Below the pieces are notes generated by a model. That model was not told the origin of the DNA, did no database searches, and was given only the letters and a program-made list of their open reading frames with translations. The position numbers and the translations under genes were made by a program. A DNA stretch of 64,000 bases from an uncultured Paracoccaceae bacterium (GTDB lineage Bacteria > Pseudomonadota > Alphaproteobacteria > Rhodobacterales > Rhodobacteraceae), in NCBI GenBank assembly GCA_947489325.1, contig CANLDA010000006.1:105799-169798 (forward strand). Reading direction: 5' to 3'. Of this stretch, positions 38,674-61,799 are shown in pieces. Every line of letters starts with the position of its first letter. The first letter of the stretch is position 1.

Positions 38674-38736
38674 CAAAAACCTCTGGTCAGTCAAAATGAT
38701 GTTGCGGTGTCGTGATCACCTTGGCAAGGTGAATCC

Positions 38737-38874
38737 GTTCTCAGGGCGGGGCGGAATGCCCCACCGGCGGTAAACGAGGTGACCTTGTAAGCCCGCGAGC
38801 GGCCTCGCATTTGAGGTGTCAGCAGATCTGGTGCAACTCCAGATCCGACGGTCAAAGTCCGGATGGAAGAGAAC
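38737..38874 (+). ncRNA. FMN riboswitch (RFN element)
   Basis: The conserved RFN core is recognisable from GTTCTCAGGGCGGGGCG through the CCACCGGCGGTAAA block, AGCCCGCGAGCG, the GATCTGGTGCAACTCCAGATC hairpin region, CCGACGGTCAAAGTCCGGATG and the closing GAAGAGAAC. GTTCTC and GAGAAC make the closing helix. It lies 81 bases before ribH and should reduce ribH expression when FMN is plentiful. Confidence 0.96.
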
Positions 38875-38955
38875 GTGCAATTGGGTGTGGTCAAAGGACC
38901 GCGCACGATTACTCGTGATCGCTTTGGGTGACGTGTCAAACCAACGGAGATCACT

Positions 38956-47682: not shown

Positions 47683-50238
47683 CTACAATCTGGGGTCAAC
47701 TGGCTCACTTTCCAACGCAAGCACCGCCAATGCGCATTCATGCACCTTGGAAAGTGGAAGCCCCTCAACAAACCTATGCAGCCCTTCAAATCCAAGTTTA
47801 AATTCCCGTTCGGCGAGCGAGAATTTACGACCCAGTCCGCGTTGGCGGAGGCGTTCGATATTCTTAGGCAGATCATAATCGGGACCATAAATTATCCGAA
47901 GATAGTCACGTCCGCGCACCTTCATTGCCGGTTGGATTAGACCTTTATCGCCACGCAGGATAAATGCGTTGGGTTTGAACACCAGCCCTTCCCCTCCCGA
48001 GCCGGTGTGTTTCATCCACCAGTCAACGACCGTCTCGCGATCAGCCGCACTGTTCAGGTCAATGCGTTTCCAGCCGGTCGTTTGCAGGATCGGATCGACG
48101 TCGGCTAATTTGCCCAGGGTTTCCATATGCCATGTATGGGGCTGATCCGCATGAACTTTGCCTGCGCTCGCCAGGATGTGGAAGGGTGCTATGCGATAGT
48201 CTTCAATACTGTCCGCTGCCCAGCAGTACCCGTCGATTGTCAGGCCCATGAGTTCCGCGTTGGAAAACTGGGTTTCTGCACGCGCGCTCAACACATCCAG
48301 CCCATCGATTTCCTCAGCTTTGGAAATTGCCCCCAGCAACGCCGAAGCTGATGATTTTGCCGCGGCGACTGTTGGCAGGTATTGCCGTTTGAGCAAATCC
48401 TGCGCCTTGGCAGACCAAGGCATAAGTTCAGCATCAAGTAGCACCCAGTCGGTCTGAAGTTCCTCCCACAGACCCGCCGATTGCATTGCTTTTCCAATTC
48501 GCGTAACAACCGCGGCTTCTTCCGACTCGTCCTTGAAGAAGGGCCGTCCGGTCCGTGTATAGATCACGCCCGCTTTGCCGTCTTCCACGCCAAATCTGGC
48601 CTTGGCGGCGTCGGCGTCTTTGGCAATCACCAACAAGGCACGCGACCCCATGTGCTTTTCCTCGACAACCAGGTCTGTCACACCCCGGCTGGCAAAGTGC
48701 TCCATCGCCTGGTCGGGATGTTCCAGAAACGGACCTTCGGGTGCCGTCGGGCAAGCGGCCATCGTAGGCGGTAGGTAGATCAGCCATCTCGGATCAACGG
48801 CAAAACGGCTCATGACCTCCAGCGCAGCAAGACTGTTTTCTTCGGGGATTTGCAAGGTGGATCTGAACCGGGTTTCGATCCGCATCTGGGTTGCATAATC
48901 ATCGAAGTAAAGCAGACGGTCATGATCTTGTTGTGCAGACAAGGATTGGTCAGCATCCAAAGGTTTAGCGGGAATCGCGTATTGCGTTTTTGCCGGAACG
49001 GAAACCGTTTCCCGCTCAGGCCACCGCAATGCCGTAAGCTTGCCGCCAAAGACGCATCCCGTGTCGATGCACATGGTGTGGTTCAGCCATTCGGCCTCGG
49101 CCATTGGCGTATGGCCAAAAACGACATCTGCCTTGCCACGATAATCGCGCGCCCATTCCAAACGCACGGGCAGGCCGAACTCATCAACCTCGCCAGTTGT
49201 TTCGCCGAACATTGCGAAGTTGCGCACATGGCCCGAGCCGCGCCCGTGCATTTCCTCTTTCAAGCCGGCGTGGGCAATGACCAGCTTGCCATCGGCCAAC
49301 CAGGCATGAGAGCGCAAATCCCAAATGAAGTCCGAGACCCGTTTGCGAAAGGTCTCCGAGGTTTTTTCAAGCTCAGAAACGGTCAGATCCAATCCATGCG
49401 CTTGCGTCACATTCCGGCCCTTCAACCATTTGTTCAGTTTGAAGTCGTGGTTGCCAATCACGCAGCGTCCAGAGCCTTCATCGCACATGCCCATGACAAG
49501 GCGCAAAGCATCCAGATTGCGCGGACCCCGGTCCGTGATATCGCCGACAAAGAACGCGGTACGGCCTTCCGGATGACGGGCGCGGATCAGGTCCTCGGAA
49601 CCGGCTTCGAACGGGTCTATCACGTATCCGAGGTTTCCAAGCAATTCGGTCAATTCATCAAAGCAGCCGTGAACGTCACCGATGATGTCAAAGGGACCAT
49701 GATCAGTGCGGTTGTCCGTCCAGAGGGGTTCGCGGTTGACCTCCAGCCCGCCCACCTCCTCGGGGGATTTCATGATCTGGACCTGTCGGAAGCCCTCTTT
49801 CTGCAGGCCGCGCAATCCACGTCTGAGTGCCTTTGCATGGTTGCGCGGCACATGTTCGCCAAAGTCTCGATTGGGGCGGTTTTGATTGCGTTCATGGCAA
49901 ATCTTAGGATCGATATCCAACACCAGCGCAACTGGGAGCGCATGATACTTGCGCGCCAGTTGCACAAGCCTTGCCCGGTCTTCGCGCCTCACTGATGTCG
50001 CATCAATGACTGTCATCAAGCGGCGCTTCAGTCGAATGGCTGCCGTGTAGTTGAGCAGATCAAAAGCATCGCCCGTCGCCGCAAGATCGGTTTCATCGTC
50101 CGACACGATCGCCCGGCAGGCGTCCGAGGAGACGATTTCGGTTTCCAGAAAATGTTTGCGCGCAAAACTGGACTTGCCCGAGCCGGTGGCGCCGATCAGG
50201 ACAACAAGAGCAAAATCGGGGATGGAAATCTTGGTCAT
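47683..50238 (-). CDS. pnkp: Polynucleotide kinase-phosphatase-ligase Pnkp
   Basis: An 851-residue three-domain RNA end-healing and sealing enzyme. Domain 1 (about 1-170) is a 5'-OH kinase with Walker A GATGSGKSS at 16-24. Domain 2 (about 180-420) is a metallophosphatase with GDVHGC (187-192), GDITDRG, GNHD and GHTPM, which removes 2',3'-cyclic phosphate. Domain 3 (about 470-851) is a nucleotidyltransferase ligase with the lysine in EEKHMGSRALL (about 525) and EGLVFKP and MKVRGRDYLRI. This matches bacterial Pnkp, which seals with Hen1; hen1 is two genes upstream. Its start overlaps the nucleotidyltransferase stop by 4 bases. Confidence 0.95.
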   Translation of the reverse strand: MTKISIPDFALVVLIGATGSGKSSFARKHFLETEIVSSDACRAIVSDDETDLAATGDAFDLLNYTAAIRLKRRLMTVIDATSVRREDRARLVQLARKYHALPVALVLDIDPKICHERNQNRPNRDFGEHVPRNHAKALRRGLRGLQKEGFRQVQIMKSPEEVGGLEVNREPLWTDNRTDHGPFDIIGDVHGCFDELTELLGNLGYVIDPFEAGSEDLIRARHPEGRTAFFVGDITDRGPRNLDALRLVMGMCDEGSGRCVIGNHDFKLNKWLKGRNVTQAHGLDLTVSELEKTSETFRKRVSDFIWDLRSHAWLADGKLVIAHAGLKEEMHGRGSGHVRNFAMFGETTGEVDEFGLPVRLEWARDYRGKADVVFGHTPMAEAEWLNHTMCIDTGCVFGGKLTALRWPERETVSVPAKTQYAIPAKPLDADQSLSAQQDHDRLLYFDDYATQMRIETRFRSTLQIPEENSLAALEVMSRFAVDPRWLIYLPPTMAACPTAPEGPFLEHPDQAMEHFASRGVTDLVVEEKHMGSRALLVIAKDADAAKARFGVEDGKAGVIYTRTGRPFFKDESEEAAVVTRIGKAMQSAGLWEELQTDWVLLDAELMPWSAKAQDLLKRQYLPTVAAAKSSASALLGAISKAEEIDGLDVLSARAETQFSNAELMGLTIDGYCWAADSIEDYRIAPFHILASAGKVHADQPHTWHMETLGKLADVDPILQTTGWKRIDLNSAADRETVVDWWMKHTGSGGEGLVFKPNAFILRGDKGLIQPAMKVRGRDYLRIIYGPDYDLPKNIERLRQRGLGRKFSLAEREFKLGFEGLHRFVEGLPLSKVHECALAVLALESEPVDPRL

Positions 50239-51059
50239 GTGACATCCCCTTCGAGAGTTCTTTCATTTACGATCTGCCGCAACAGCTCGTCACCTTCAGC
50301 CATCAAATCCGGTCGCTCATCCTGTTTCGCCACGACCTCAGCCCAGCCGATCTGATCGAGGATGAAAGTATCAATCATCGGAATGCGCGCGCCACGCCCT
50401 ATTTCCTTGGCAGCGGATTTCAGGACCAGCAGTCGTTCAATATGTTCGACGAGTTCTCGGTCCAGAGATTGTCCCACTACCAGCGCCTGTAGGTTCATTG
50501 GCGGCTGGACCGAGGGGTTTTGCCTGATCCACGAAATCGCCAGAGCGGGCCGCAGGATGTAGAAGTATTTTTTCAAAGACACATCTGGGTTGTCCCCGAC
50601 ATGCTTGTCCCATTGCTTCACCGCCAGGTTGCGATAGTGATGCAGGCAGCTTTCGCCAAATGTCGTCTTGTCCGCAAATTGGATCAGACGGTCACAGACC
50701 GCATCATTCCAGCGATACCGGATCGGGCTCGACAGCCATTCCAGCATCACCGGGTTGGGTTTGATCAATAGCCCAAGCGCTTTGCGAATGTCCCAGCCGT
50801 TGATGTCCCAGTCGCCTTCGATGGGCAGTTCTATGACATCACGACCGGGCTCAATGCTGAGATACCAGTCAGGCTGGCGGGCATAGATGAACCGCACATC
50901 GTAATCACTGTCAGGCGACGGAAATCCCCAAGCCCGGCTGCCGCTTTCAATAGCAAAAAGAATGCGCACATCGTGATCGACCTCCAAAGCAGTGAGCTTG
51001 GATTGGATAACCGCTTCGACATCTGGCGCTACGGACGGAATGAATGTAGGCAGATTCAT
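50235..51059 (-). CDS. Predicted nucleotidyltransferase of the RNA-repair type (RlaP/YcgL-like)
   Basis: A 274-residue protein with the polymerase-beta-type nucleotidyltransferase signature GSRAWGFPSPDSDYDVRFIY, which includes the GS and DxD of the catalytic metal site. The C-terminal half is helical. Members of this family are known from comparative genomics to sit beside RNA ligase and Pnkp genes and have been called RlaP. The reaction is unproved; adding or removing a terminal nucleotide at a broken end is plausible. It overlaps both hen1 and pnkp by 4 bases, so the three are translated as a unit. Confidence 0.87.
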   Translation of the reverse strand: MNLPTFIPSVAPDVEAVIQSKLTALEVDHDVRILFAIESGSRAWGFPSPDSDYDVRFIYARQPDWYLSIEPGRDVIELPIEGDWDINGWDIRKALGLLIKPNPVMLEWLSSPIRYRWNDAVCDRLIQFADKTTFGESCLHHYRNLAVKQWDKHVGDNPDVSLKKYFYILRPALAISWIRQNPSVQPPMNLQALVVGQSLDRELVEHIERLLVLKSAAKEIGRGARIPMIDTFILDQIGWAEVVAKQDERPDLMAEGDELLRQIVNERTLEGDVT

Positions 51060-52453
51060 GCGGCACCCTCCTGTTTGAACACAGCCATCTGCGATGGGCC
51101 GCCATGGGTGTCGTCAACCGGCCCCAAAGGCGTGAAACTGACGCTATAGCCATGTTCTTCAGCCACCATATTGGCCCAGGTTTCGAATTCCGCTCGGGTC
51201 CATTCGAACCGGTGATCTGGATGGCGCAGTTTGCCGTCCTTCAGACCTTCGAACAGCACATTGTATTCCCGGTTGGGTGTCGTCATCACCACCATACGTG
51301 GGCGGGCATCGGCAAAGAGCGACAGAACAAGCGCCGACAAGCGGTGTGGTTCGATATGTTCGATCACCTCGACCAGTGTTGCGGCATCAAAGCCCTGCCA
51401 GCGCCTGTCCCCATAAGTCAGGCTGCCCATCTGCAGCGACACGCGCTCGGCCATGGCGTCCCCTGCCTGATGCAGTCGCAGCTTGCGATGCGCCGTTTCC
51501 AGAGTTCTTACTGACGCATCCACGCCAACAATGCGCGCCAGACCGCGCTCCTTGATCAGCCGCGACATCAACTTGCCTTCGCCGCATCCCAGATCGAGAA
51601 CCGAAGCGACATTGTTCTGCCTAAGCACCTCTGCCACCGTATCCAACCGCAAGGCATGCAAGCGCAATGGCTTTTCAAGCTGCTCTTCAGGCTTGATCTT
51701 CGGAGCTTCCTCCGGTTCTTCTTCCCGCAGCGCCGTTTCTTCAAGGCGGGCGAGGGCCATGTTCATCAATGAGCGGCGATGCTTCAAGGCGCGGCGCGTG
51801 ATGAGTTCCTTATCGGGATGCTCGGACAACCATCCCTCACCCTTTGCCAGAAGCTTGTCGATTTCTTCTTCGCTCACATAGTAATGCTTGAAGTTATCCA
51901 GGACGGGGACCAGCACATAAAGGTGCTTGAGAATGTCCGCGAGGCGCAGTGTTGCGGACAGACGCAGATCGACAACCTGCGCTTCGCCGATCTCTGATGG
52001 TGAGAGAATGTTATAACCCAATGGCTCGAACAGACGTTTGACCAGATCCAGATCACCCGACAAGGCGACAGGCACAACGCGGATTTCGAACCGCAGCGCA
52101 CGGTCCGCCAGAGCCTGTCGATCCTTCGATTTCCCAGCCATCGTCTGGGCAAAGGCCCGTCCCATTGCGACCGACAGAAATGAGCTTGCCACAAAGGGGC
52201 GGTCATTCACGTATTGCGCGAGTAGGCCATCGCTGTGCTGGTTTTTCCCGCGCACCAACCCAACCGGATCGACATCAAGATGCATCACAGCTGTGGTGCG
52301 CTCCTGCGATTTTTCAGGATAGAAAATCATGACCTCGCCTGCCGATGTTTCCCGCCTGTGCATGTGGTCAGGATGCTTGTGCAGCAAGAATCCAAGATCG
52401 CTTGCAGCGTAGTCAGCATCAGCCGGTGCGGTAAGGGTAATTTCGATTTGCAT
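51056..52453 (-). CDS. hen1: RNA 3'-terminal 2'-O-methyltransferase Hen1
   Basis: A 465-residue protein of full bacterial Hen1 length. The N-terminal half (about 1-240) is the Hen1-N domain that contacts Pnkp and helps its ligase; the C-terminal half is a SAM methyltransferase with VLDLGCGEG (about 283-291) and the metal motif EVIEHIEPHR (about 360). It methylates the 2'-OH at the 3' end before sealing, so that the repaired junction resists renewed cleavage. The ATG giving MQIEITL is used; longer frames reach toward rtcB. It is read with rlaP and pnkp. Confidence 0.93.
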   Translation of the reverse strand: MQIEITLTAPADADYAASDLGFLLHKHPDHMHRRETSAGEVMIFYPEKSQERTTAVMHLDVDPVGLVRGKNQHSDGLLAQYVNDRPFVASSFLSVAMGRAFAQTMAGKSKDRQALADRALRFEIRVVPVALSGDLDLVKRLFEPLGYNILSPSEIGEAQVVDLRLSATLRLADILKHLYVLVPVLDNFKHYYVSEEEIDKLLAKGEGWLSEHPDKELITRRALKHRRSLMNMALARLEETALREEEPEEAPKIKPEEQLEKPLRLHALRLDTVAEVLRQNNVASVLDLGCGEGKLMSRLIKERGLARIVGVDASVRTLETAHRKLRLHQAGDAMAERVSLQMGSLTYGDRRWQGFDAATLVEVIEHIEPHRLSALVLSLFADARPRMVVMTTPNREYNVLFEGLKDGKLRHPDHRFEWTRAEFETWANMVAEEHGYSVSFTPLGPVDDTHGGPSQMAVFKQEGAA

Positions 52454-52590
52454 AATGTAGTCAACCAAGAACGTTTTGAAATTTAAGGCATAAATGCCAA
52501 TTTGGGCGAATAGAAGGCGGTCGAATTCGATGTGTTTTAAAACTGGAACCCAACGTCCGCCCATGAATGGATCGCAAAGGTCGCCGGTGA

Positions 52591-54006
52591 TTACCGGCGG
52601 CCTTTCTTCTTGTTTAGCCAGAACGGTGGCACGTCGCCTGCCATAATACAGCCGTAAGGGTCGATATAATCTTCGATCTCGGCCAGATCGTAGGATTTGA
52701 TCTGAGCAACCACGTTGTCGGCGTTTTTATAGCTCGACGGTAGTTCCGAGGCGTCCACGCCCCCGGCATGGAACCGGATATCCAAACCCTCGGTTTCGGC
52801 CTTCAGCATCTGATCGGGCGTGACCGACCCCATCCGGCGTTTGTGTTCCGAGCGCGAGAAGTTGCGCCCTGCACCGTGCGGGCTGAACCCCAAACCGTGA
52901 CCCGCGTCCTTGCCACGCACAACAAGCACGGGTTCGGACATGTTCAGCGGAATAAGCGTGAGCCCCGTCGCATCCGTGGCGTATCCATCCCAGGCAGGGG
53001 TCGCGCCCTTGCCATGATAATAGATATCGCCCCGCTTGAAGACGAAGTTGTGCTCGTTCCAGAACCGCTCACCCACATCGCCCACGCGTGCGGCCTCGAC
53101 CGTGGCTTGGTGGATGGCATTGTGGTTAGCCTTGGTCCACTTACGGATCAGCTGCAGCGCCTCCCAATAGTCGCGCCCTTCCTCGGTATCTGCCGGAATC
53201 CAGGCGTTCTGCTTGGCAGTCTCGGGCGACAGTTCTTTGCGGAACTTCTCGGCCACATGCATCCCATGCTTATACAGAACCGCCCCCGGTCCGCGCGACC
53301 CGTGGTGGGTCACAATCGCGGTCCGTCCGGTTTTGCGTGAGCGTCCGACAAACAGGAAGTGGTTCCCGTCCCCTTGTGTGCCCATGTGCTCCTGTGCCAT
53401 GCGCAGGGATTTCGGGTTGTCCAGAAACGGATTTTCGCGAAACGCATCCATCAGCTTCATCGACGTGGTGAACCGCTTGCCCTGAGGCCGGCCACCGGGC
53501 CCGAAATGCGTGACCGACTGGGCCGCATCCAGCACAACCTTGGGATCGGCATTGCCCAGATCGGTGATCATGACCGAACAGCAGATGTCAGCCGAGTGCA
53601 TCCCTGGATGGATCGCATTACGCGCCGCTGCCACACCTCCAACCGGGATGGTGCCAACAGGCCCAGCCGGACAGGCATCGGGCATGATGGCCCCTGCCTC
53701 TATTGTCGGCGTGCGCATCAGAGCGGTCATGGTTTCGCGTACCTTGTCGACATTGTCTTCCTCGTCTGGATGATCCATGCCGATGTTTTCATGAAACGGC
53801 ACTTCACCGGGCGCGCGCAGGTCCAGCGTCACTGGAGCGGGAGGAATCTCGCCCTCCAGTTCCTGCCGGATACGCACCAAACCGAACCCTTCGGTGCGCA
53901 TCTCATTCGCACGCGCCAACAGCGCCGGGAATTGCTTGCCGGGGCGATGCCCCCATTCCTTCAGGTGTTCACCGGTAACCGGGTAGTTTGTGTTTTCGCT
54001 ACTCAT
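52591..54006 (-). CDS. rtcB: RNA ligase RtcB, Ro60-operon type
   Basis: A 471-residue ligase joining 3'-phosphate (or 2',3'-cyclic phosphate) to 5'-OH using GTP and manganese. The metal ligands appear conserved although their settings differ from the common form: SADICCSVM replaces VDIGCGM, then GTQGDGNHF, THHGSRG, YYHGKGATPAW, and HGAGRNFSR with the guanylylated histidine. Thus it belongs to a divergent RtcB branch distinct from the second copy at 60.6-61.7 kb. It is preceded by the Y-RNA array and rsr, and followed after 137 bases by hen1. Confidence 0.94.
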   Translation of the reverse strand: MSSENTNYPVTGEHLKEWGHRPGKQFPALLARANEMRTEGFGLVRIRQELEGEIPPAPVTLDLRAPGEVPFHENIGMDHPDEEDNVDKVRETMTALMRTPTIEAGAIMPDACPAGPVGTIPVGGVAAARNAIHPGMHSADICCSVMITDLGNADPKVVLDAAQSVTHFGPGGRPQGKRFTTSMKLMDAFRENPFLDNPKSLRMAQEHMGTQGDGNHFLFVGRSRKTGRTAIVTHHGSRGPGAVLYKHGMHVAEKFRKELSPETAKQNAWIPADTEEGRDYWEALQLIRKWTKANHNAIHQATVEAARVGDVGERFWNEHNFVFKRGDIYYHGKGATPAWDGYATDATGLTLIPLNMSEPVLVVRGKDAGHGLGFSPHGAGRNFSRSEHKRRMGSVTPDQMLKAETEGLDIRFHAGGVDASELPSSYKNADNVVAQIKSYDLAEIEDYIDPYGCIMAGDVPPFWLNKKKGRR

Positions 54007-54030
54007 CTATCCATCTCACTCTAACATCGG

Positions 54031-54158
54031 TCACGGCGACAAGGGGTTGGTGAAACATTTTCAACTGCTCTATCCAACTGAGCTACATCGCGGAATGCGA
54101 TGGCGGGGCTCGAACCCGCGACCAGGTGATTATGTAGTTCCACCGGCATTCGCCGTGA
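54031..54158 (-). ncRNA. Y-RNA-like ncRNA 6 (with tRNA-like module)
   Basis: A 128-base RNA on the minus strand whose ends pair: TCACGGCGA with TCGCCGTGA. After the AATGCC / CTTG internal loop an upper helix GGTGGAAC/GTTTCACC follows. The interior is a permuted tRNA module: T arm GCGGG-TTCGAGC-CCCGC (54103-54119), a closed acceptor-like hairpin CATCGC-ATTCC-GCGATG (54086-54102), then a D arm TAGCTCAGTTGGATAGAGCA. It ends 25 bases before rtcB. Nearly identical in its core to copy 3. Confidence 0.9.
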
Positions 54159-54167
54159 TATTTCGGG

Positions 54168-54245
54168 TCCGGGGGACAAGAGGTTCGTGAGAGGCCTTTC
54201 GGCGGTTCGTTTCAAGCGATGTACTCCCACGGGCATTCCCCCGGA
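54168..54245 (-). ncRNA. Y-RNA-like ncRNA 5 (short form)
   Basis: A 78-base RNA with paired ends TCCGGGGGA/TCCCCCGGA, the GAATGCC and CTTGT internal-loop elements, and an upper helix CGTGGGAG/CTCTCACG. It has no T or D arm, so it lacks the tRNA-like module. A GAAATGAAAGGAAAATA leader precedes it, overlapping the stop of the small protein gene upstream. Nine bases separate it from copy 6. Confidence 0.85.
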
Positions 54246-54255
54246 TATTTTCCTT

Positions 54256-54591
54256 TCATTTCCTTTCGTCCAGCACGTTGAGAAATAACTGAACGCTCTT
54301 GTTCCAGTCTGATTTGGAACCTGGCTTCTTTAGGTAGAGCTCTGACACCGGACCTTCAGTTTCGACAAAGAGATCCACATATTGTGCTTCGTCCATAGGC
54401 AAGGTCGTAAGCGCGTCATCTCCCATTCCCTTGAAGCGAAGCTGGACCATAAGCCCGTCGTACGAGCGGCGAGCGAACCAAACTTCGGAAACCCATTGCA
54501 GGGCTCCGTAATCCTGCTCATTTTCAACTTTCGATATCACAAAACGCTTAGCTTCGAGAGCGGCCTCCAGTGCTTTGAACTGTGGTTGCAT
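54256..54591 (-). CDS. Small protein of unknown function within the Y-RNA array
   Basis: A 111-residue protein that I do not recognise. It begins with a helix (ALEAALEAKRF) and continues beta-rich (WVSEVWFARRSYDGLMVQLRF), ending in SDWNKSVQLFLNVLDERK. AGGA lies 9 bases before the ATG, 19 bases after the tRNA-Asn 3' end. Its stop lies in the leader of Y RNA 5. Position suggests a cotranscribed RNA-binding or accessory protein, but nothing in the sequence proves it. Confidence 0.72.
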   Translation of the reverse strand: MQPQFKALEAALEAKRFVISKVENEQDYGALQWVSEVWFARRSYDGLMVQLRFKGMGDDALTTLPMDEAQYVDLFVETEGPVSELYLKKPGSKSDWNKSVQLFLNVLDERK

Positions 54592-54610
54592 GTCTTTGGT
54601 CCTAGATGTC

Positions 54611-54685
54611 TGGCTCGGCTGGTTGGGATCGAACCAACGACATCCTGATTAACAGTCAGGCGCTCTACCACTGAGCTACAGCTGA
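54611..54685 (-). tRNA. tRNA-Asn (anticodon GTT) embedded in the Y-RNA array
   Basis: A 75-base cloverleaf with encoded GCCA end. D arm GCTC/GAGC, anticodon stem CCTGA/TCAGG, loop CTGTTAA (anticodon at 54651-54653), T arm GTTGG-TTCGATC-CCAAC. The acceptor TCAGCTG/CAGCCGA pairs except for an A-C mismatch at position 3-70. G73 is right for Asn. It begins 11 bases after the end of Y RNA 4, in the same transcript. Functional status is open because of the mismatch. Confidence 0.9.
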
Positions 54686-54696
54686 AAAATTTGGAC

Positions 54697-54851
54697 CCCG
54701 GCGACAAGGAGAGAAGAAACAACCCGGGACCCGCCCCGCATCCGAATGGGCGGATGCGTTTGCCGTCTGGGCGCCTGCAAGGAGGGGAGTTGAACCCGCT
54801 CGGTTTACCCCGGAAGGGTGCTGCAATGTAGTTCCTTCGGCATTCGCCGGG
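54697..54851 (-). ncRNA. Y-RNA-like ncRNA 4 (long, diverged interior)
   Basis: A 155-base RNA with ends CCCGGCGA/TCGCCGGG, the AATGCC / CTTG loop and an upper helix GAAGGAAC/GTTTCTTC. The interior has GGGTTCAACTCCCC, a weakened T-arm-like segment, and a strong extra hairpin CGCATCCG-CCCATT-CGGATGCG, but no clear D arm. A GAATGAAAGGAAAAA leader lies just before it. It is flanked by the two tRNA genes. Confidence 0.82.
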
Positions 54852-54874
54852 TTTTTCCTTTCATTCGTTTCGTC

Positions 54875-54949
54875 TGGTGTGCCCGGTGGGGATCGAACCC
54901 ACGACACACCGCTTAAAAGGCGGTTGCTCTACCACTGAGCTACGGGCGC
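54875..54949 (-). tRNA. tRNA-Lys (anticodon TTT) embedded in the Y-RNA array
   Basis: A 75-base cloverleaf with encoded ACCA end. D arm GCTC/GAGC, anticodon stem ACCGC/GCGGT, loop CTTTTAA, T arm GTGGG-TTCGATC-CCCAC. The acceptor GCGCCCG/CGGGCAC has one C-A mismatch at position 2-71. Its sequence differs clearly from the canonical tRNA-Lys at 42.3 kb but has the same anticodon and loop. Only 6 bases separate it from Y RNA 3. Confidence 0.9.
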
Positions 54950-54955
54950 GTGCCC

Positions 54956-55076
54956 CGGCGACAAGGGTTTGGTGAAACGCCTGCTCTACCATCTGAGCTA
55001 CATCGCGGAATGCGATGGCGGGGCTCGAACCCGCGACCTGGAGAGTGACAGTCTGTAGTTCCACCGGCATTCGCCG
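54956..55076 (-). ncRNA. Y-RNA-like ncRNA 3 (with tRNA-like module)
   Basis: A 121-base RNA with ends CGGCGA/TCGCCG, the AATGCC / CTTG loop and upper helix GGTGGAAC/GTTTCACC. The permuted tRNA module has T arm GCGGG-TTCGAGC-CCCGC (55018-55034), acceptor-like hairpin CATCGC-ATTCC-GCGATG (55001-55017) and D arm TAGCTCAGATGGTAGAGCA. A TTGAAAGGATAGAT leader precedes it. Confidence 0.9.
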
Positions 55077-55099
55077 AGATCTATCCTTTCAATTCGGGT

Positions 55100-55184
55100 C
55101 AGGCGGACAAGTGGGGGCGAGACCTACGGCCCACTTGGGGCGCGTATCGGGTTCAGCGATGTAGTCCCACCGGCATTCCGCCTG
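55100..55184 (-). ncRNA. Y-RNA-like ncRNA 2 (short form)
   Basis: An 85-base RNA with ends CAGGCGG/CCGCCTG, GAATGCC and CTTGT loop elements, and upper helix GGTGGGAC/GTCTCGCC. It lacks T and D arms. A CTCGAAATATCAC leader precedes it, the same type as before copy 6. Confidence 0.85.
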
Positions 55185-55197
55185 TGATATTTCGAGT

Positions 55198-55324
55198 CTG
55201 GCGACAAGAACTTACGAAACGTTTCCGCGCGTCTACCAATTCCGCCACATCGCGGTTGCGATGGTGGGATTCGAACCCACAATATACGGGCACCTGAAGC
55301 TGTAGTTCCGCAGGCATTCGCCAG
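55198..55324 (-). ncRNA. Y-RNA-like ncRNA 1 (with Leu-like tRNA module)
   Basis: A 127-base RNA, the first of the array after rsr. Ends CTGGCGA/TCGCCAG, AATGCC / CTTG loop and upper helix TGCGGAAC/GTTTCGTA. The permuted tRNA module has a perfect T arm GTGGG-TTCGAAT-CCCAC (55264-55280), an acceptor-like hairpin CATCGC-AACC-GCGATG, and a D arm TGGCGGAATTGGTAGACGCG that looks like that of a tRNA-Leu rather than the D arms of copies 3 and 6. An ATGAAAGGAATGACAT leader precedes it. Confidence 0.9.
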
Positions 55325-55344
55325 ATGTCATTCCTTTCATGGTT

Positions 55345-55373: not shown

Positions 55374-56930
55374 TTACAGATCGATCTTTTCGATCTCGCC
55401 GACCCAATGGTCCGGGCCTGTCTGACCGGAGGCAAAGGCCGCGATCTGGTCAAAGACCGCGTCCGAGAACCCGCCGACATTCAGCACGTCTTCACGTGTC
55501 TGGGCCTGCGTGGTCCCGTACGGCGCGATGTCGATGCAGACCAGTTTGGCCTTTGGGTTGCGACGCTTGATCGCCTCCCATTCCTTCAGCATCGCTGTTC
55601 CCTGACCACCGGTGCGGGCATCTACCCACGACTGGTTGTCAGACACGAACACCACCAGATCCGGCGCACGACCACGATCGTTCAGCCACTTCAGCGGCGC
55701 GGAACAATTTGTTCCACCACCGGCCAGAGCGGCCAGACGCTCGGCATTGGTCAGGATCGTGTCGCGCGGCTCCAGACGTACGTCACGCACGTCGAAGTCG
55801 AACGGCAGAACCTGACCTCCACGGTTCACGCGCTGGAACGACGCGGCCACAAGGGCTGCTACGTCCACGTGACGCACGGCCGAGGTCGCTCCCGGGCGAT
55901 ACCCGGTCACAGACCAGGTCATGGACCCGGAGACGTCCGGACACACGACCACCTGGCCCGCGATCTTCGGCACGTTCTGCACCGCGATTTCCATCGCATC
56001 ATGCAGGGCGTCCACTATGTCGCGTGGCATATCGCTGTTCACGTTTTGCGCCGCCACCATCAACTGGTACGGAAACGCACGTGCCTTGGCGATCGCCTCT
56101 GGGTCGCGCAGCAAGGCCGCAACGTGATCCACGTTCTTTGCCACACCGAAAACGCCGTGACGCTGAAATGTGTTCAGGTTCTGGCGCACCATCTGCCACG
56201 AGCCTTTGCGTGCGATCCGCGCCCAGTGGGCCGAGGACAGCTCCAGCTGCGTCAACATCTGGAACGGCACGTCAGGCACCGGCCCTCGGCCTGTTTCCTT
56301 GAACGCCATCCAATCCTGCACAGCCTGTGGCAACCGTGCCAAATCGCTCGGCCGCCCGACAATCCAGGCAAACAGCGCCTCCCGCTCGGCCGAGGCCGGT
56401 TTCGGGTGCACCATCTTGATCACGTCCGCCAAGGACGGGTCGTTGCCGATATTGGCGTTCAGTAGCGCCCAGTCAGACGCGGTGTTCAGCCAGTTCTGCA
56501 CCATAGCTTTGGGCGCAGAACCCAATGACTTACGACCGGTCTGGCCGGAGCGGACTATCTGCACAAAGGTACGCAGCATTTTGCCGTTATCGACCACACG
56601 GGCGAAAGCCGCACGGAACAGGACCGGATCACGCCGGGCCAGAACAGCCAGCAACACAGCAGGCATGTCCTTCATGTAACCCGAACGGCGAGCATAGATG
56701 GCCGCCTGCGCCAGATAGCGCGGATCAACGGATTCGGCGACGTCCAGAACATATTCCAGTTCTTCCTGCGGCGACTGATAGAACATGCCCCCGAAAGTGC
56801 CGGTAACAGCGACCTGCGCCAGGGCATGGGCATCGGAATAAGCGTAGGCCGGTGCCGCGTGGGCATTCTTTGCAGTCGCTTTCGGCAGCAACCGGCCTTT
56901 GATCGATGCAAACACGGATTTGTTCGCCAT
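55374..56930 (-). CDS. rsr: Ro60-family RNA-binding protein (TROVE domain)
   Basis: A 518-residue ring-shaped RNA-surveillance protein. The first 330 or so residues are HEAT-like helical repeats of the TROVE domain (EYVLDVAESVDPRYLAQAAIYAR). The C-terminal part is a von Willebrand A domain with an intact metal site: DVSGS (about 335), GGGTN and FVSDNQS. Bacterial Ro60 binds Y RNAs and ends of misfolded RNAs and may tether PNPase. The gene is divergent from rtcR and followed by six Y-RNA-like genes, its expected ligands. Confidence 0.96.
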   Translation of the reverse strand: MANKSVFASIKGRLLPKATAKNAHAAPAYAYSDAHALAQVAVTGTFGGMFYQSPQEELEYVLDVAESVDPRYLAQAAIYARRSGYMKDMPAVLLAVLARRDPVLFRAAFARVVDNGKMLRTFVQIVRSGQTGRKSLGSAPKAMVQNWLNTASDWALLNANIGNDPSLADVIKMVHPKPASAEREALFAWIVGRPSDLARLPQAVQDWMAFKETGRGPVPDVPFQMLTQLELSSAHWARIARKGSWQMVRQNLNTFQRHGVFGVAKNVDHVAALLRDPEAIAKARAFPYQLMVAAQNVNSDMPRDIVDALHDAMEIAVQNVPKIAGQVVVCPDVSGSMTWSVTGYRPGATSAVRHVDVAALVAASFQRVNRGGQVLPFDFDVRDVRLEPRDTILTNAERLAALAGGGTNCSAPLKWLNDRGRAPDLVVFVSDNQSWVDARTGGQGTAMLKEWEAIKRRNPKAKLVCIDIAPYGTTQAQTREDVLNVGGFSDAVFDQIAAFASGQTGPDHWVGEIEKIDL

Positions 56931-56993
56931 TTTTCAGTTCCTCTTATTTGGTGAGGACGTTTTGGCATGATATTCGGTTCACTCGAAAGAAAA

Positions 56994-57028
56994 TCGAAAA
57001 ATCTGACAAGCCATTGATATTAAATCAA
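56994..57028 (-). promoter_or_regulatory. Candidate control region of the rsr operon
   Basis: Read leftward, TGGCTTGTCAGATTTTT (57013 down) keeps the GG of a sigma54 -24 element but lacks the GC at -12, so it is a poor sigma54 match. TTGATATTAAATCAA (57014-57028) is an interrupted inverted repeat (TTGAT/ATCAA) just upstream and may bind RtcR. The gap between rsr and rtcR is A+T-rich and 173 bases long. No convincing sigma70 pair was found either. Confidence 0.35.
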
Positions 57029-57103
57029 TAATATGGAGTTTGAGTTTTTGCGCGAGTACATATACTATCTTACTTTATCGCAATTTATAAAATTGGATAC
57101 GAA

Positions 57104-58666
57104 ATGAAGAACGTGGTTATCGGCTTTCTCGGAACCCAGTTGGATATGGGCAAGAAAAGGCGTTGGAAACCGACGCCCAGCCTTGTCAGCCACGATCATT
57201 TCAAGGTGGATCGGCTCGAAATCCTTTATGACATGCGGTTCAATCGTCTGGCCAAGCAGGTTCAGCGCGAGATTGAAGAAGCATCACCAGATACGGAGGT
57301 ACTGCTCCAACAGCTTGACCTGAATGATCCATGGGATTTTCAGGAGGTCTATGGCAAGCTGTTCGACTTCGCGCGATCCTATGGGTTTGACGATGAACGC
57401 GAACAGTACCATGTGCATCTGACCACCGGGACACATGTAGCCCAGATCTGCTGGTTCCTGCTGACGGAAAGCCGCCACGTGCCTGCCCGTCTGGTCCAAA
57501 CTGGTCCGCCGGGGCCGGAAGAGGAGGTGCCAAAGTTCGATGTCATCGACCTGGACCTGAGCCGTTATAACGCGCTTCAGCAGCGTTTTGACCAACTGTC
57601 GCGCGAACACAGTGACCAGCTGAAGGGCGGGATCGAGACGCTCAATGCAGAATACAACGATCTGATCGACCGAGTTGAGCTGGTCGCCAGCAATTCCAAC
57701 GAACCTATCCTGCTGCTCGGCGAAACCGGCACTGGCAAGACCGAACTGGCCGAGCGCATTCATAGCCTCAAACTCGATCGACGCCGCGTCAAAGGCCGTC
57801 TGGTCCACGTGAATTGCGCAACATTGAACGGGCCAGATGCCATGGCAACGCTTTTTGGTCAGCGCCGCTCTTACCTTGGGGCGGCGGGGACTGAACGCAG
57901 CGGGTTGTTGCGCGAAGCGGATGGCGGCGTCCTGTTTCTGGATGACGTGGACGAGTTGAACTCCAACATGCAGTCGGTTCTGCTGCATGCGATTGAAACC
58001 GGGCGGTTTTATCCACTGGGGTCCGACCACGAAATCTCAAGCCGATTTCACCTGGTTGCCGGTGCCAACCGCGATCTGCGCAGCTTGACGGCGTCGGGGC
58101 AGTTTCGACCCGACCTTTTGGCCCGGTTGAACACTTGGAGTTTTACCTTGCCTGCGCTGCGCAATCGCAGCGAGGATATAGAGGCAAATCTGCTGCATGA
58201 ACTGGATCGCTGCGAAAGGGATTTGGGCACCCATGTCGGATTCAACTCGGATGCCCGCGTGCAATATCTGGACTTTGCCAAAGATCCGGCAACCCATTGG
58301 CCGGGAAACTTCCGTGACTTCTCGGGTTCGATCCGAAGGTTGTGCACGCTTGCGCCACGTGGTCGGATTACGCGGGCGATGGTCTCGGCCGAAATCGAGA
58401 CGCTTCAGGCGGATTGGAAGTCTGCTCAGTCGAATGACGATTTCAAGCTGGTTGCAGATGTGATGGGTGATGCCGTGTCTGATGTGGACCCGTTTGACCT
58501 TGTTCAGCTGGCCGAGGTGATCCGGGTCTGTCGTCGTTCCTCAAGCCTAAGCGCTGCGGGGCGCGCCTTGTTTGTAGTGTCGCGCAGCAAGCGCAAGACC
58601 CAGAACGATGCTGATCGGCTGCGGAAGTATCTTGGTAAGTTTGATTTAGAGTGGGGTGCAATCTAG
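57104..58666 (+). CDS. rtcR: RNA-repair operon regulator RtcR
   Basis: A 520-residue AAA+ transcription activator. Residues 1 to about 180 are the CARF-like sensor domain (HLTTGTHVAQICWFLL), expected to bind RNA fragments with 2',3'-cyclic phosphate ends. The AAA+ core has Walker A GETGTGKT (about 205-212). Where relatives have GAFTGA, this protein reads SYLGAA (about 255), and Walker B is LFLDD where LFLDE is usual. The C-terminal DNA-binding part keeps SLSAAGRALF and NDADRLRKYLGKF. It is divergent from rsr and alone in its direction. Confidence 0.94.
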   Translation: MKNVVIGFLGTQLDMGKKRRWKPTPSLVSHDHFKVDRLEILYDMRFNRLAKQVQREIEEASPDTEVLLQQLDLNDPWDFQEVYGKLFDFARSYGFDDEREQYHVHLTTGTHVAQICWFLLTESRHVPARLVQTGPPGPEEEVPKFDVIDLDLSRYNALQQRFDQLSREHSDQLKGGIETLNAEYNDLIDRVELVASNSNEPILLLGETGTGKTELAERIHSLKLDRRRVKGRLVHVNCATLNGPDAMATLFGQRRSYLGAAGTERSGLLREADGGVLFLDDVDELNSNMQSVLLHAIETGRFYPLGSDHEISSRFHLVAGANRDLRSLTASGQFRPDLLARLNTWSFTLPALRNRSEDIEANLLHELDRCERDLGTHVGFNSDARVQYLDFAKDPATHWPGNFRDFSGSIRRLCTLAPRGRITRAMVSAEIETLQADWKSAQSNDDFKLVADVMGDAVSDVDPFDLVQLAEVIRVCRRSSSLSAAGRALFVVSRSKRKTQNDADRLRKYLGKFDLEWGAI

Positions 58667-58703: not shown

Positions 58704-59948
58704 TCATTCGGCGGCTATATCTTGTATTCGGCCTTCTAGTCCCGACGCTTGTGCAGCCGCTTTTGGGTCGGCGCTATTGGCCAAGAGCCAACCTTGTATT
58801 TGGGCCGGGCTGTGTCTTTGTTTTCCCAACCGCCGTTCGAATGCCTCGGCCAAATCGCGTTCACCGGGGAAAAAGCGCTCAAACAGACGGCGGGCTGTTG
58901 CTGCACCCACCAATCCAAGCTCGGTATGCACATCGGCGCGGCCCGGACGGATCAAGGCCGGGTCCAGCTTTTCCTTGTGATTGGTCGTCATGACCAACGC
59001 ACGCCCCTCCTGAGCAGCCACCCCATCAATGGCATTGAGCAAGCCTGAGAAGCTGACGCCCGAGCGTTTCTCGCCACCTTCGCGCTGCGTAAACACGGCG
59101 TCCACATCCTCGATTGCGATCAGAGACCCCTTGGGGGCACACATCATCGCTTCGCGGAGGTCATCATCCGTCAGCGTGACGCGCCCGATATCCAGCGACG
59201 CGATATCCAATGACAGGTCTGATGCCAGCGCGCGAATGAGGCTTGACTTGCCCGTGCCCGGAGGGCCGTAAAACAGATACCCCCGCCGCCAAGGAACACC
59301 ACGTTCCGCGTACCAGTTGCTGGCCCTATAGAACCAACGCATGTCCTCCAGCACTTTCTCAATACGGTCGTCATCCACTAGCACTGTGTTGATGGAACGG
59401 CGTGGGACATCCCCGACATGATCCCACCAATCCCCTTTCAGAATATGGAGGCCAGGGCCGATGCGATCCCTGGTCTGGGAAAGCGTACGTCCCTCGGCGA
59501 TCCAGCCAAGAATTGTCTCAACCTTCCCGAACAGGACGGTGATATTCAACACCTCCATGGGTCGCTGGTTGTGAGCGGCCCCGACCTTTGACTTTTCATT
59601 GATATCGCGCTCCAGGCGGCAAAGGTGGCCGCGCCAGAAAAACCAATGCCGACCCGGAGCCGGTGCATAGCCCTTTGTTCCCCGAGCCCATTTCCCATCC
59701 GTCATGCGCACATGGCGCGAATGGGACAGGACGTGGTTCTGCTCCATCCAGATACAGAAATGGCGATAAGCCGCGCTTCGGTTGTCGAGTGTCAGGCTCA
59801 CCCAAACTCGCCGCACAATCACGCGGTACATAGCCATGAACGCAATGCGCAGAAAGGCTGCCGCGACCCCGAAGGCCCCGAGTGCCAAGCCGCCCGCGAA
59901 AAAATCGCTGGTCAGAGCGCTGGTCAGGAATTGATCGAATGCTTCCAT
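58704..59948 (-). CDS. BCS1-like AAA ATPase
   Basis: A 414-residue protein with one N-terminal membrane helix (FFAGGLALGAFGVAAAFLRIAF), a BCS1-N-like region (about 40-200) and an AAA domain with Walker A GPPGTGKSS (about residue 225), Walker B SLIAIEDVDAVF, and arginine finger in RPGRAD. Mitochondrial BCS1 moves folded proteins across a membrane; bacterial relatives have no settled role and often occur near conflict genes. Its ATG begins 1 base after the prfH stop, so it belongs to the rtcB2-prfH operon. Confidence 0.9.
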   Translation of the reverse strand: MEAFDQFLTSALTSDFFAGGLALGAFGVAAAFLRIAFMAMYRVIVRRVWVSLTLDNRSAAYRHFCIWMEQNHVLSHSRHVRMTDGKWARGTKGYAPAPGRHWFFWRGHLCRLERDINEKSKVGAAHNQRPMEVLNITVLFGKVETILGWIAEGRTLSQTRDRIGPGLHILKGDWWDHVGDVPRRSINTVLVDDDRIEKVLEDMRWFYRASNWYAERGVPWRRGYLFYGPPGTGKSSLIRALASDLSLDIASLDIGRVTLTDDDLREAMMCAPKGSLIAIEDVDAVFTQREGGEKRSGVSFSGLLNAIDGVAAQEGRALVMTTNHKEKLDPALIRPGRADVHTELGLVGAATARRLFERFFPGERDLAEAFERRLGKQRHSPAQIQGWLLANSADPKAAAQASGLEGRIQDIAAE

Positions 59949-59949
59949 C

Positions 59950-60591
59950 TTAGCCCCCTTTCACTTCGCGAAAATCGCGGCCCTTGAAGCACCGCACCGG
60001 ATTGCCGCGTTCGAGCGCATAGTGCAGCTCGTTTCGGCTTGCCTTTTGTGCGGCTTCATCCGCTGCGGCTTGGGCGGCCATCAGATGCTGAAGACGTTCC
60101 AACGCCAGCGCCTTATTGCGGTGTTGTGAACGCTCCTCACGCGCCACTGCTGTCAGCCCGGTTTGCTTGTGCGTCGCCCGTACCGCGCTATCGGTTGTGT
60201 TCTGGTGCTGCCCGCCGGGGCCGCCGGCACGGAAGGTGTCGAATGTGACGTCGCTCGCGCGAACGCACTCAGGCGTTTGCACCGGTGCAGGCAGGTCGAA
60301 CACCCCAATGAACCAGTTGGCCCGTTTATGCGTCGGACGCAGATCGCTCTGCGCACGCCACTGGATCGTACCGCGCCACTTCTTGGCGAAGGTTTCCGCG
60401 TCGGCACCGCTGATCAGAACCACTGCGGATTTATAGCCATGTTTTGTGCGCGCGCCATTGGCGTCGAAGTCCACGGCGAGGAGCTCGGCCTCGTTGCGCA
60501 TGACATCCAGCACGCCTGCAATAGCTTGCTGGCATTCCGCCGGACCGCTGCCACTGGTGATCAGGAGTGAGATATGCCGGGAGGCAGTCAT
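59950..60591 (-). CDS. prfH: Peptide chain release factor homolog PrfH
   Basis: A 213-residue class-I release factor homolog without the N-terminal domain of RF1/RF2. The catalytic GGQ is at residues 126-128 in RAGGPGGQHQNTTDSAVRA. PrfH acts on ribosomes with damaged decoding centres, hydrolysing peptidyl-tRNA so that the partner RtcB can reseal the 16S rRNA. The start overlaps the rtcB2 stop by 4 bases, the usual arrangement of this pair. Confidence 0.95.
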   Translation of the reverse strand: MTASRHISLLITSGSGPAECQQAIAGVLDVMRNEAELLAVDFDANGARTKHGYKSAVVLISGADAETFAKKWRGTIQWRAQSDLRPTHKRANWFIGVFDLPAPVQTPECVRASDVTFDTFRAGGPGGQHQNTTDSAVRATHKQTGLTAVAREERSQHRNKALALERLQHLMAAQAAADEAAQKASRNELHYALERGNPVRCFKGRDFREVKGG

Positions 60592-61721
60592 GACCGCCTC
60601 CCGTCACGTGTTTTCTTGAAGGTCAGCAGTGGATGAAACTCCGCCACGCAATGTGCAGCACCTGTGCGCTCCAGGTCTTCGGCAACAGACTTGGCCGATT
60701 TGTAGGCCAAAGGCGCCTCTTCAATCAGAAGGTCGCGATCTTCGCACAGAATACGACCGCCGAAGGATGTACGCTGCATGGCCTGTATATCGGATTTCTT
60801 GGCGCGCAGACGACCATGCATCGAGGATCGGTCGTAGCGTCGTCCGGCACCATGAGCGAGGCTGCCTAGTGCGTCGTCATGACCGTTCGGAGCCATCAGA
60901 TAGCTCGGACTAGCCCGCGATCCGGCAAGCGGAACAAATCCCTGCTTGGCGACTGCCGCGCCCTTGCGGTGCAGCCAGCCATCGCCATACCGCGCAAGCA
61001 AGTTATGCGGGGCATCCGCAATCAATGTAAGGTCCGCCCGAAGCGCCTCGGCCGCCCGTTCTGCAATGACCTGACGATTGAGGCGGGCCCAGCGAACCGC
61101 TTTGTCTTGATCTTTCAGATAGATCTGAGCTGCGTCACTATCCTCTTGCAGTCCGGCATAAGCTCCCTGTGGCACAGCCTCTAGAACGGCATTGCCAAAA
61201 CCACGCGATCCGGAATGCACCAGAAGATAAAGGCGCGATGTGTCGAGGCAGGTGCTTTCATCTGCCTCAGCCAAAGCCAGCACCTCGCAGAAATGATTAC
61301 CACCGCCCACAGTGCCGAGCGATGCGGCAAACAGATCGGTCGGCAGACCAGCATCTTCCAGTCGCCAGCGCTGATCTTCAGATGCAGGCTCTCCAAGTAC
61401 ACGCATCCGGCGCAGCGCCTTTTCCAGCTTCAGCTTCCGCACAGGCAGATCAAGCTGGAACAGCGACATTCCACAACCGATATCGTTGCCGATAAGTTGC
61501 GGAAAGATCCGATCAGCCAGCACTGCGCAGCCAACCGGCCCGTATTTGCCGGGATGCAAATCAGGAAAGGTTGCGATTTCTTGCACGCCGGTCCAGCCGG
61601 CAATTTCTTCAAGTTGCGCTTCGGCCCGTCCTTCGATCCAGGCCGCAGATGTATAGAATTTCGTGATGATGGCGTCGCCGGACACAGCTGACGCACGACC
61701 ATCCAAGACAGAATTGCCCAT
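60588..61721 (-). CDS. rtcB2: RNA ligase RtcB2, PrfH-associated type
   Basis: A 377-residue RtcB. Unlike the copy near 53 kb it has textbook motifs: GNDIGCGM, GTVGGGNHF, HSGSRG, HRKGA and HGAGRRYDR with the guanylylated histidine. The shorter length and the adjacency to prfH match the RtcB2 group that repairs cleaved 16S rRNA. The start is taken at the ATG giving MGNSVLDG; no strong ribosome site is seen, and a frame to 61781 is open. Confidence 0.93.
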   Translation of the reverse strand: MGNSVLDGRASAVSGDAIITKFYTSAAWIEGRAEAQLEEIAGWTGVQEIATFPDLHPGKYGPVGCAVLADRIFPQLIGNDIGCGMSLFQLDLPVRKLKLEKALRRMRVLGEPASEDQRWRLEDAGLPTDLFAASLGTVGGGNHFCEVLALAEADESTCLDTSRLYLLVHSGSRGFGNAVLEAVPQGAYAGLQEDSDAAQIYLKDQDKAVRWARLNRQVIAERAAEALRADLTLIADAPHNLLARYGDGWLHRKGAAVAKQGFVPLAGSRASPSYLMAPNGHDDALGSLAHGAGRRYDRSSMHGRLRAKKSDIQAMQRTSFGGRILCEDRDLLIEEAPLAYKSAKSVAEDLERTGAAHCVAEFHPLLTFKKTRDGRRS

Positions 61722-61799
61722 GAGATAGTACCCAATAAACGTATGTAGATGCGCCCGCGACGAGCCGGCGAACTGGATCAAACCTGATCTGATTTCAGC

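Follow-up and report, generated by a model that had tools for sequence, protein, structure and literature searches.

In the present study, a tandem of six Y-RNA units and two interleaved tRNA genes was located between rsr and rtcB, on the minus strand (54031-55325) of the window, the 64,000-nucleotide stretch of DNA from an uncultured Paracoccaceae bacterium that was analysed, and three of the six units (1, 3 and 6) carry a circularly permuted tRNA body. This anatomy of Y units, tRNA genes and permuted bodies is well supported. As to its function, we tentatively favour the reading that the six units and the two tRNA genes are damage-induced, Ro60-bound anticodon baits with spare tRNAs, and that, once enzymes cleave the tRNAs of the cell, the array would act as a bait or as a backup. 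If this is true, the anticodon-arm sequence of the array has a direct function, as bait for anticodon nucleases, and Ro60, the sensing of tRNA damage and spare tRNAs are joined in one operon. The array can be described as a YrlA array of new composition, with tRNA genes and an anticodon insertion. Its priority over earlier work is not established; neither anticodon arms in Y RNAs nor tRNA genes in rsr-rtcB arrays appeared in the titles and abstract openings that were searched, a scope outside which the main Y-RNA papers lie.

The genes on the minus strand follow in the order rsr, array, rtcB, Hen1, RlaP and PNKP-ligase. The rsr gene (55374-56930) encodes a Ro60-type protein, which matches Pfam vWA_Ro60 (54.9 bits) and TROVE (26.8 bits), both above the cut-off, and scores 81 bits against NCBIfam Rsr, the cut-off of which is 900. 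The RNA ligase gene rtcB (52591-54006) is followed by three other RNA-repair genes, Hen1 (51056-52564), RlaP (50235-51059) and PNKP-ligase (47683-50238). The divergent regulator gene rtcR lies at 57104-58666 on the plus strand (Pfam RtcR; NCBIfam RtcR 675 bits, cut-off 650). The divergent RtcR and the RtcB by which an RtcR-controlled RNA-repair operon is recognized are thus both present.

The sequence-only reading had described six tandem Y-RNA units between rsr and rtcB, and all six were recovered on the minus strand by a motif-plus-helix finder with shuffle control. In its strict form, in which a unit must have AATGCC, CTTGT and five or more pairs in its outer helix, the finder gave 6 units in the interval of the window and 105 across 31 intervals (29 rsr-rtcB intervals, that of the window included, and two running from rsr to the contig end). 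It gave none elsewhere within the window and none in the rest of the 30 loci, which comes to 1.07 Mb with both strands counted, and sets of base-shuffled intervals averaged 0.02. A looser finder made 127 hits, which after removal of two merged artefacts left 125 units. The inner 8-bp helix, said to covary, was not a criterion in unit detection; it has 8/8 pairs in all six units of the window and at least 7/8 in 124 of the 125 units, against a mean of 61 (maximum 74) after swapping of partners. The identity as Y RNA is upheld by the Rfam YrlA matches of two units, the outer and inner helices common to all six and the adjoining Ro60-type gene.

The units, all on the minus strand, are of several forms. 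Unit 1 (55197-55325) has a permuted tRNA body with a tRNA-Leu-like D-arm, TGGCGGAATTGGTAGACGCG, and matches Rfam YrlA (RF02553) at 55195-55324 with 58.6 bits, under the cut-off of 69; ARAGORN calls a tRNA in it after de-permutation only. Unit 3 (54953-55079), the permuted body of which includes an anticodon-loop sequence, matches at 54952-55077 with 71.1 bits, and unit 6 (54031-54158), with a permuted body and no anticodon segment, at 54030-54156 with 79.9 bits. No RF02553 match was found for units 2, 4 and 5. Units 2 (55100-55184) and 5 (54168-54245) are of a short form without tRNA body, and unit 4 (54697-54851) is of a long form with T-arm-like sequence that is present in 24 of the 31 homologous intervals (one label corrected by hand). 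A 111-aa open frame without Pfam or NCBIfam match also lies within the array, after the tRNA-Asn gene (54256-54591). In addition, a hairpin of the GGTCG...CGACC kind recurs directly ahead of CTTGT across various types of unit and various species, like a movable insertion; its carriers are L041, L046, L049 and L062 among the anticodon-arm units, and L041_7, L058_3 and L061_2.

YrlA is known to resemble the D, T and acceptor arms of tRNA, as stated in the part of PMC8394870 drawn on here. In units 1, 3 and 6, as in YrlA units generally, these parts are read as T-arm, closed acceptor-like stem and D-arm, in that order. When the Y stem was cut away, the core rotated and ARAGORN run, a tRNA was called in 24 of the 125 units, the three of the window among them, and none was called among the 125 without rotation or in 10 shuffled replicates. 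The anticodon assigned by ARAGORN to such cores is often not a natural one, and the remaining majority of the units fail this test, some for having no tRNA-like body and others being divergent. In an alignment of 24 units, two-sided changes are frequent in the acceptor-like stem. A second permutation was seen in relatives (8 units by script, L039_5 by eye), in which the D-arm is split in its loop, with GGTAGACGC (or GGCAGACGC) at the 5' side and TGGCGGAA at the 3' side; these halves stand in normal order in a tRNA-Leu of the window's genome. In L004 (G000:C18:27298-27416) the YrlA model also scores on two identical tRNA-Gly genes that stand side by side, since the permuted order results where the first gene ends and the second starts. 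Tandem tRNA genes might have been the origin of YrlA bodies.

Thirteen nucleotides of unit 3, at 55042-55054 (minus strand), are absent from the Rfam consensus; this insertion, AGA-CTGTCAC-TCT, offers as RNA three possible base pairs around CUGUCAC. This heptamer is the exact anticodon loop of tRNA-Asp(GUC) in the window's genome, and 21 nt beginning two bases past the hairpin are identical to the same tRNA. The 31 intervals hold 36 comparable units, of which 24 have a segment of 19-21 nt at this site and 12, window unit 6 among them, have 6-15 nt and no room for an anticodon arm. When segments were chosen by length only, 18 of the 24 could make three Watson-Crick pairs round 7 nt (shuffle mean 1.6, maximum 7), 15 of these 18 had U33 and a purine at position 37 (shuffle mean 0.25, maximum 3), and five loops were anticodon loops of the window's genome (0.004 expected). 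A wider set of 38 distinct segments was taken from the interval units, other families and a search with a stem-blind pattern, leaving out segments below 17 nt and the long form of the unit 4 type. Here the hairpin is possible in 29 segments, from several families, compared with a mean of 3.0 (maximum 11) after shuffling and 6.6 (maximum 13) after partner swapping, all uncorrected for kinship. Both sets thus show the stem covariation expected of an anticodon-arm mimic. The 29 hairpins have ten kinds of stem, namely AGA/TCT (15), CGA/TCG (3), GCG/CGC, GGA/TCC and AGG/CCT (2 each) and five others once, although those with CTG/CAG (L081) and TGG/CCA (L070) may be due to chance. Their loops include the types of Asp GUC, Asn GUU, Lys UUU, Arg UCU, UCG and CCU, Cys GCA and Met CAU; U33 is found in 22, together with a purine at 37 in 18, and is missing from seven, some loops having C at position 33.

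The folding results point the other way. The anticodon stem was not predicted by RNAalifold on 24 aligned units. In alignment A1, MAFFT displaces this stem in four rows. In single-sequence folds with nearest-neighbour energies, all three pairs reached a probability of at least 0.5 in 7 of 27 units, and the fold of window unit 3 gives them values close to 0 and prefers a GACT/GGTC pairing instead. Judged from the nucleotide sequences, the covarying stem with changing loop identity would count for the bait reading and the folding results against it.

The two tRNA genes of the window are a tRNA-Lys(UUU) at 54875-54949, which starts 11 nt past the CTTGT of unit 3, and a tRNA-Asn(GUU) at 54611-54685, with A3.C70 in its acceptor stem, both on the minus strand. 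The tRNA-Lys scores 69.0 bits with the Rfam tRNA model, is called tRNA-Lys(UUU) by ARAGORN, encodes CCA and folds as a tRNA. Across the 31 intervals (31,023 bases) ARAGORN found 29 tRNA genes (13 Lys, 13 Asn and 3 Gln) in 20 intervals and none in the other 11, while about 0.3 would be expected from a genome search with at least 40 tRNA matches in 4.0 Mb; a '???' call in L049 and an 'Asp' call in L063, itself a Y unit, were left out of this tally. The anticodon loops of the array tRNAs are unchanged from those of the housekeeping genes. All array genes for tRNA-Lys, tRNA-Asn and tRNA-Gln encode CCA, apart from the tRNA-Lys of L037 and the tRNA-Asn of L049, which folds differently. In the L037 tRNA-Lys (interval positions 373-444), TCA stands where the other array tRNA-Lys genes encode CCA. 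The distance from CTTGT to the start of tRNA-Lys is 11 nt in 9 of 13 cases, and this recurrent spacing suggests that the RNase P cut may also set the 3' end of the Y RNA.

The acceptor stems of these genes differ in quality. The array tRNA-Lys has C2.A71 in all 13 intervals having one (12 by script, L037 by eye), and one further copy from the wider family search (L134/L145) has C2-G71 instead; among 10 tRNA-Lys genes retrieved from outside arrays, nine have G2-U71 and one A2-U71. In Borrelia, the only organism for which the requirement is known, G2-U71 is essential for the class I enzyme LysRS-1, according to the part of PMC9976931 consulted. The window's tRNA-Lys, with C2.A71, lacks this pair, which the housekeeping tRNA-Lys has, and the window's genome encodes a class I LysRS, the sole class II lysS match being AspRS. 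On these grounds, poor charging by the cell's class I LysRS is predicted for the array tRNA-Lys, a property that would suit a bait better than a backup. Among the scored array tRNA-Asn genes, that of the window has A3.C70 and that of L059 a mismatch at acceptor pair 6; the remaining ten are free of acceptor mismatches, as are the three for tRNA-Gln. With their ordinary acceptor stems, most of the tRNA-Asn genes and the three for tRNA-Gln could be real backups.

The 30 rsr relatives, with best-segment identities of 59-95%, come mostly from records of Roseobacter-clade genera (Shimia, Roseovarius, Ruegeria and others), and rtcB lies downstream of rsr in 28 of them, the two exceptions (L050, L063) being short contigs. 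A row of six units had been considered unusual. The array is real, but the 31 homologous intervals carry from 1 to 7 units, most often 4 (seven units in one interval, six in four, five in five, four in twelve, three in four, two in four and one in one); since such arrays are general in relatives, six is not unique. Overall, the sequence-only reading of a Y-RNA array is partly supported: its units stand, and it overlooked the tRNA genes between the units, the permutation of the tRNA bodies and the sequence that matches an anticodon loop. A genome of another family of the class (L104/L077) has 6 or 7 units, no tRNA gene was found in the rsr-rtcB gaps of L104-L109, from other families, and Rsr was detected in 7 of 289 genomes of the class, two of them weakly. 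The stem-blind pattern, from which the anticodon stem was left out to avoid a circular choice of segments, gave 25 matches among the 394 genomes of the family, spread over 15 of them, and 8 among the 385 of the class, spread over 7, two of these seven having no adjoining Y units. The reversed pattern gave 15 matches in the 394 and 5 in the 385 genomes, and the pattern is thus not very specific; for this reason the count of spread rests on adjoining Y units, which stand beside the match in 28 of 30 retrieved loci (L122-L151). Rfam YrlA matches near 45 bits were rejected as evidence of spread, at least one (L004) being an artefact of two tRNA-Gly genes, and owing to this tandem-tRNA artefact the 39 of 398 genomes with such matches were not tallied as Y-RNA carriers. 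A phage origin was likewise set aside, as one scan of viral contigs found no Rsr relative.

In the bait reading, anticodon nucleases would cut cellular tRNAs, and the 5' tRNA fragments would activate RtcR, as described for Salmonella RtcR in the portion of PMC7790460 used here, where the protein responds to cuts in the anticodon loop. An rsr-array-rtcB transcript would then be made, and RNase P and 3' processing would, to judge from the spacing, cleave it at the tRNAs. Rsr, like others of its family, would attach to the Y stems, and the permuted tRNA bodies would display anticodon loops outside translation and so draw the nuclease off; alternatively, these bodies may themselves be cut, in which case RtcB or the Hen1-PNKP system would reseal them. 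In that same portion of PMC7790460, Salmonella YrlA is not cut by the SOS-linked nuclease of this organism, which fits an inhibitor and not a sacrificial bait, and competitive inhibition of the nuclease by YrlA is suggested as one possibility. A more specific form of the bait reading, which we hold a little less readily, is a library of swappable anticodon decoys on the Ro60 ring, with loops that differ by species and with poorly charged bait tRNAs. The permuted bodies of such a library would have their break either inside the D-loop or where the D-stem meets the anticodon part, and the library would evolve against whichever anticodon nucleases attack.

These proposals have to be weighed against rival ones. 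The units may have the ordinary YrlA role, tethering Rsr to PNPase and steering RNA decay, with the tRNA-like body for effector binding and the anticodon stretch as a relic of descent from tRNA genes. We consider this somewhat unlikely, although it agrees with the published picture of YrlA (in the parts of PMC8394870 and PMC7790460 consulted), with folding that does not favour the anticodon stem and with the lack of the segment in 12 of 36 comparable units. Complementary stems of ten kinds and loops of several tRNA identities would be unexpected in a relic, and the interleaved tRNA genes are left unexplained. These genes are the starting point of another explanation, in which the operon supplies fresh tRNA-Lys, tRNA-Asn or tRNA-Gln for cut ones and the tRNAs are also cutting points that free the Y RNAs. 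The nearly general CCA, the recurrent 11-nt spacing and a stress-induced operon of 26 tRNAs in Anabaena, with rtcB in its regulon (from the passages of PMC10272220 searched), argue for a backup supply; the absence of G2-U71, essential for Borrelia LysRS-1 (PMC9976931, in part), from the array tRNA-Lys, the 11 of 31 arrays without a tRNA gene and the anticodon-loop sequences inside the Y RNAs, for which it does not account, make it an improbable explanation of the whole.

A tRNA-modifying enzyme could also be the partner of the hairpin, which would titrate it or be modified by it. The queuosine enzyme Tgt, for example, prefers UGU in a 7-nt loop. The hairpin loops read NUGUNNN in 13 of 29 cases, and DusA and TruB act on YrlA (PMC8394870, in the part consulted), yet 16 of the 29 loops have no UGU, and we give this explanation very little weight.

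Among known systems, YrlA (RF02553) and the Salmonella rsr-yrlBA-rtcBA operon are the most directly comparable in structure, with Y stem, T-arm, closed acceptor-like stem and D-arm in equal order. In Salmonella too, the units adjoin rsr and rtcB and RtcR is divergent (PMC7790460, the portion used here). The present locus and its relatives differ in that an interval may hold as many as 7 units, in the tRNA genes among these, in the 13-nt anticodon-hairpin insertion and, in relatives, in the second permutation point; furthermore, Hen1, RlaP and PNKP stand next to rtcB here instead of RtcA. The Anabaena trn operon also has extra tRNA genes and, in the passages of PMC10272220 searched, is induced under translational stress in the same regulon as rtcB. 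It differs in its 26 tRNAs under the repressor TrcR and in having rtcB at another locus, and those passages do not mention Y RNA. Some algae and archaea have circularly permuted tRNA genes, with the tRNA halves in reversed order, but here the body sits on a Y stem and nothing points to its maturation into a tRNA that works. Phage-borne replacement tRNAs, which counter host anticodon nucleases, are likewise extra tRNA copies tied to tRNA damage; unlike them, the present copies belong to a bacterial repair operon and have the same anticodon loops as the housekeeping genes.

With regard to regulation, no sigma-54 promoter for rsr was found, none of the 31 rtcR-rsr gaps matching the -24/-12 patterns that we drew up. 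The window's RtcR is without the GAFTGA motif of sigma-54 activators and reads RRSYLGAAGT there. RtcR may work here with another sigma factor. Inverted-repeat-like stretches are conserved in the rtcR-rsr gaps (56931-57103 in the window). Beyond rtcR, at 58704-61781, lie a BCS1-like AAA gene, prfH and a second rtcB, and this cluster, in full or in part, also adjoins rtcR in several relatives, L035, L037, L039, L046, L051 and L054. Elsewhere in the window, an FMN riboswitch was detected at 38733-38878 with 110 bits.
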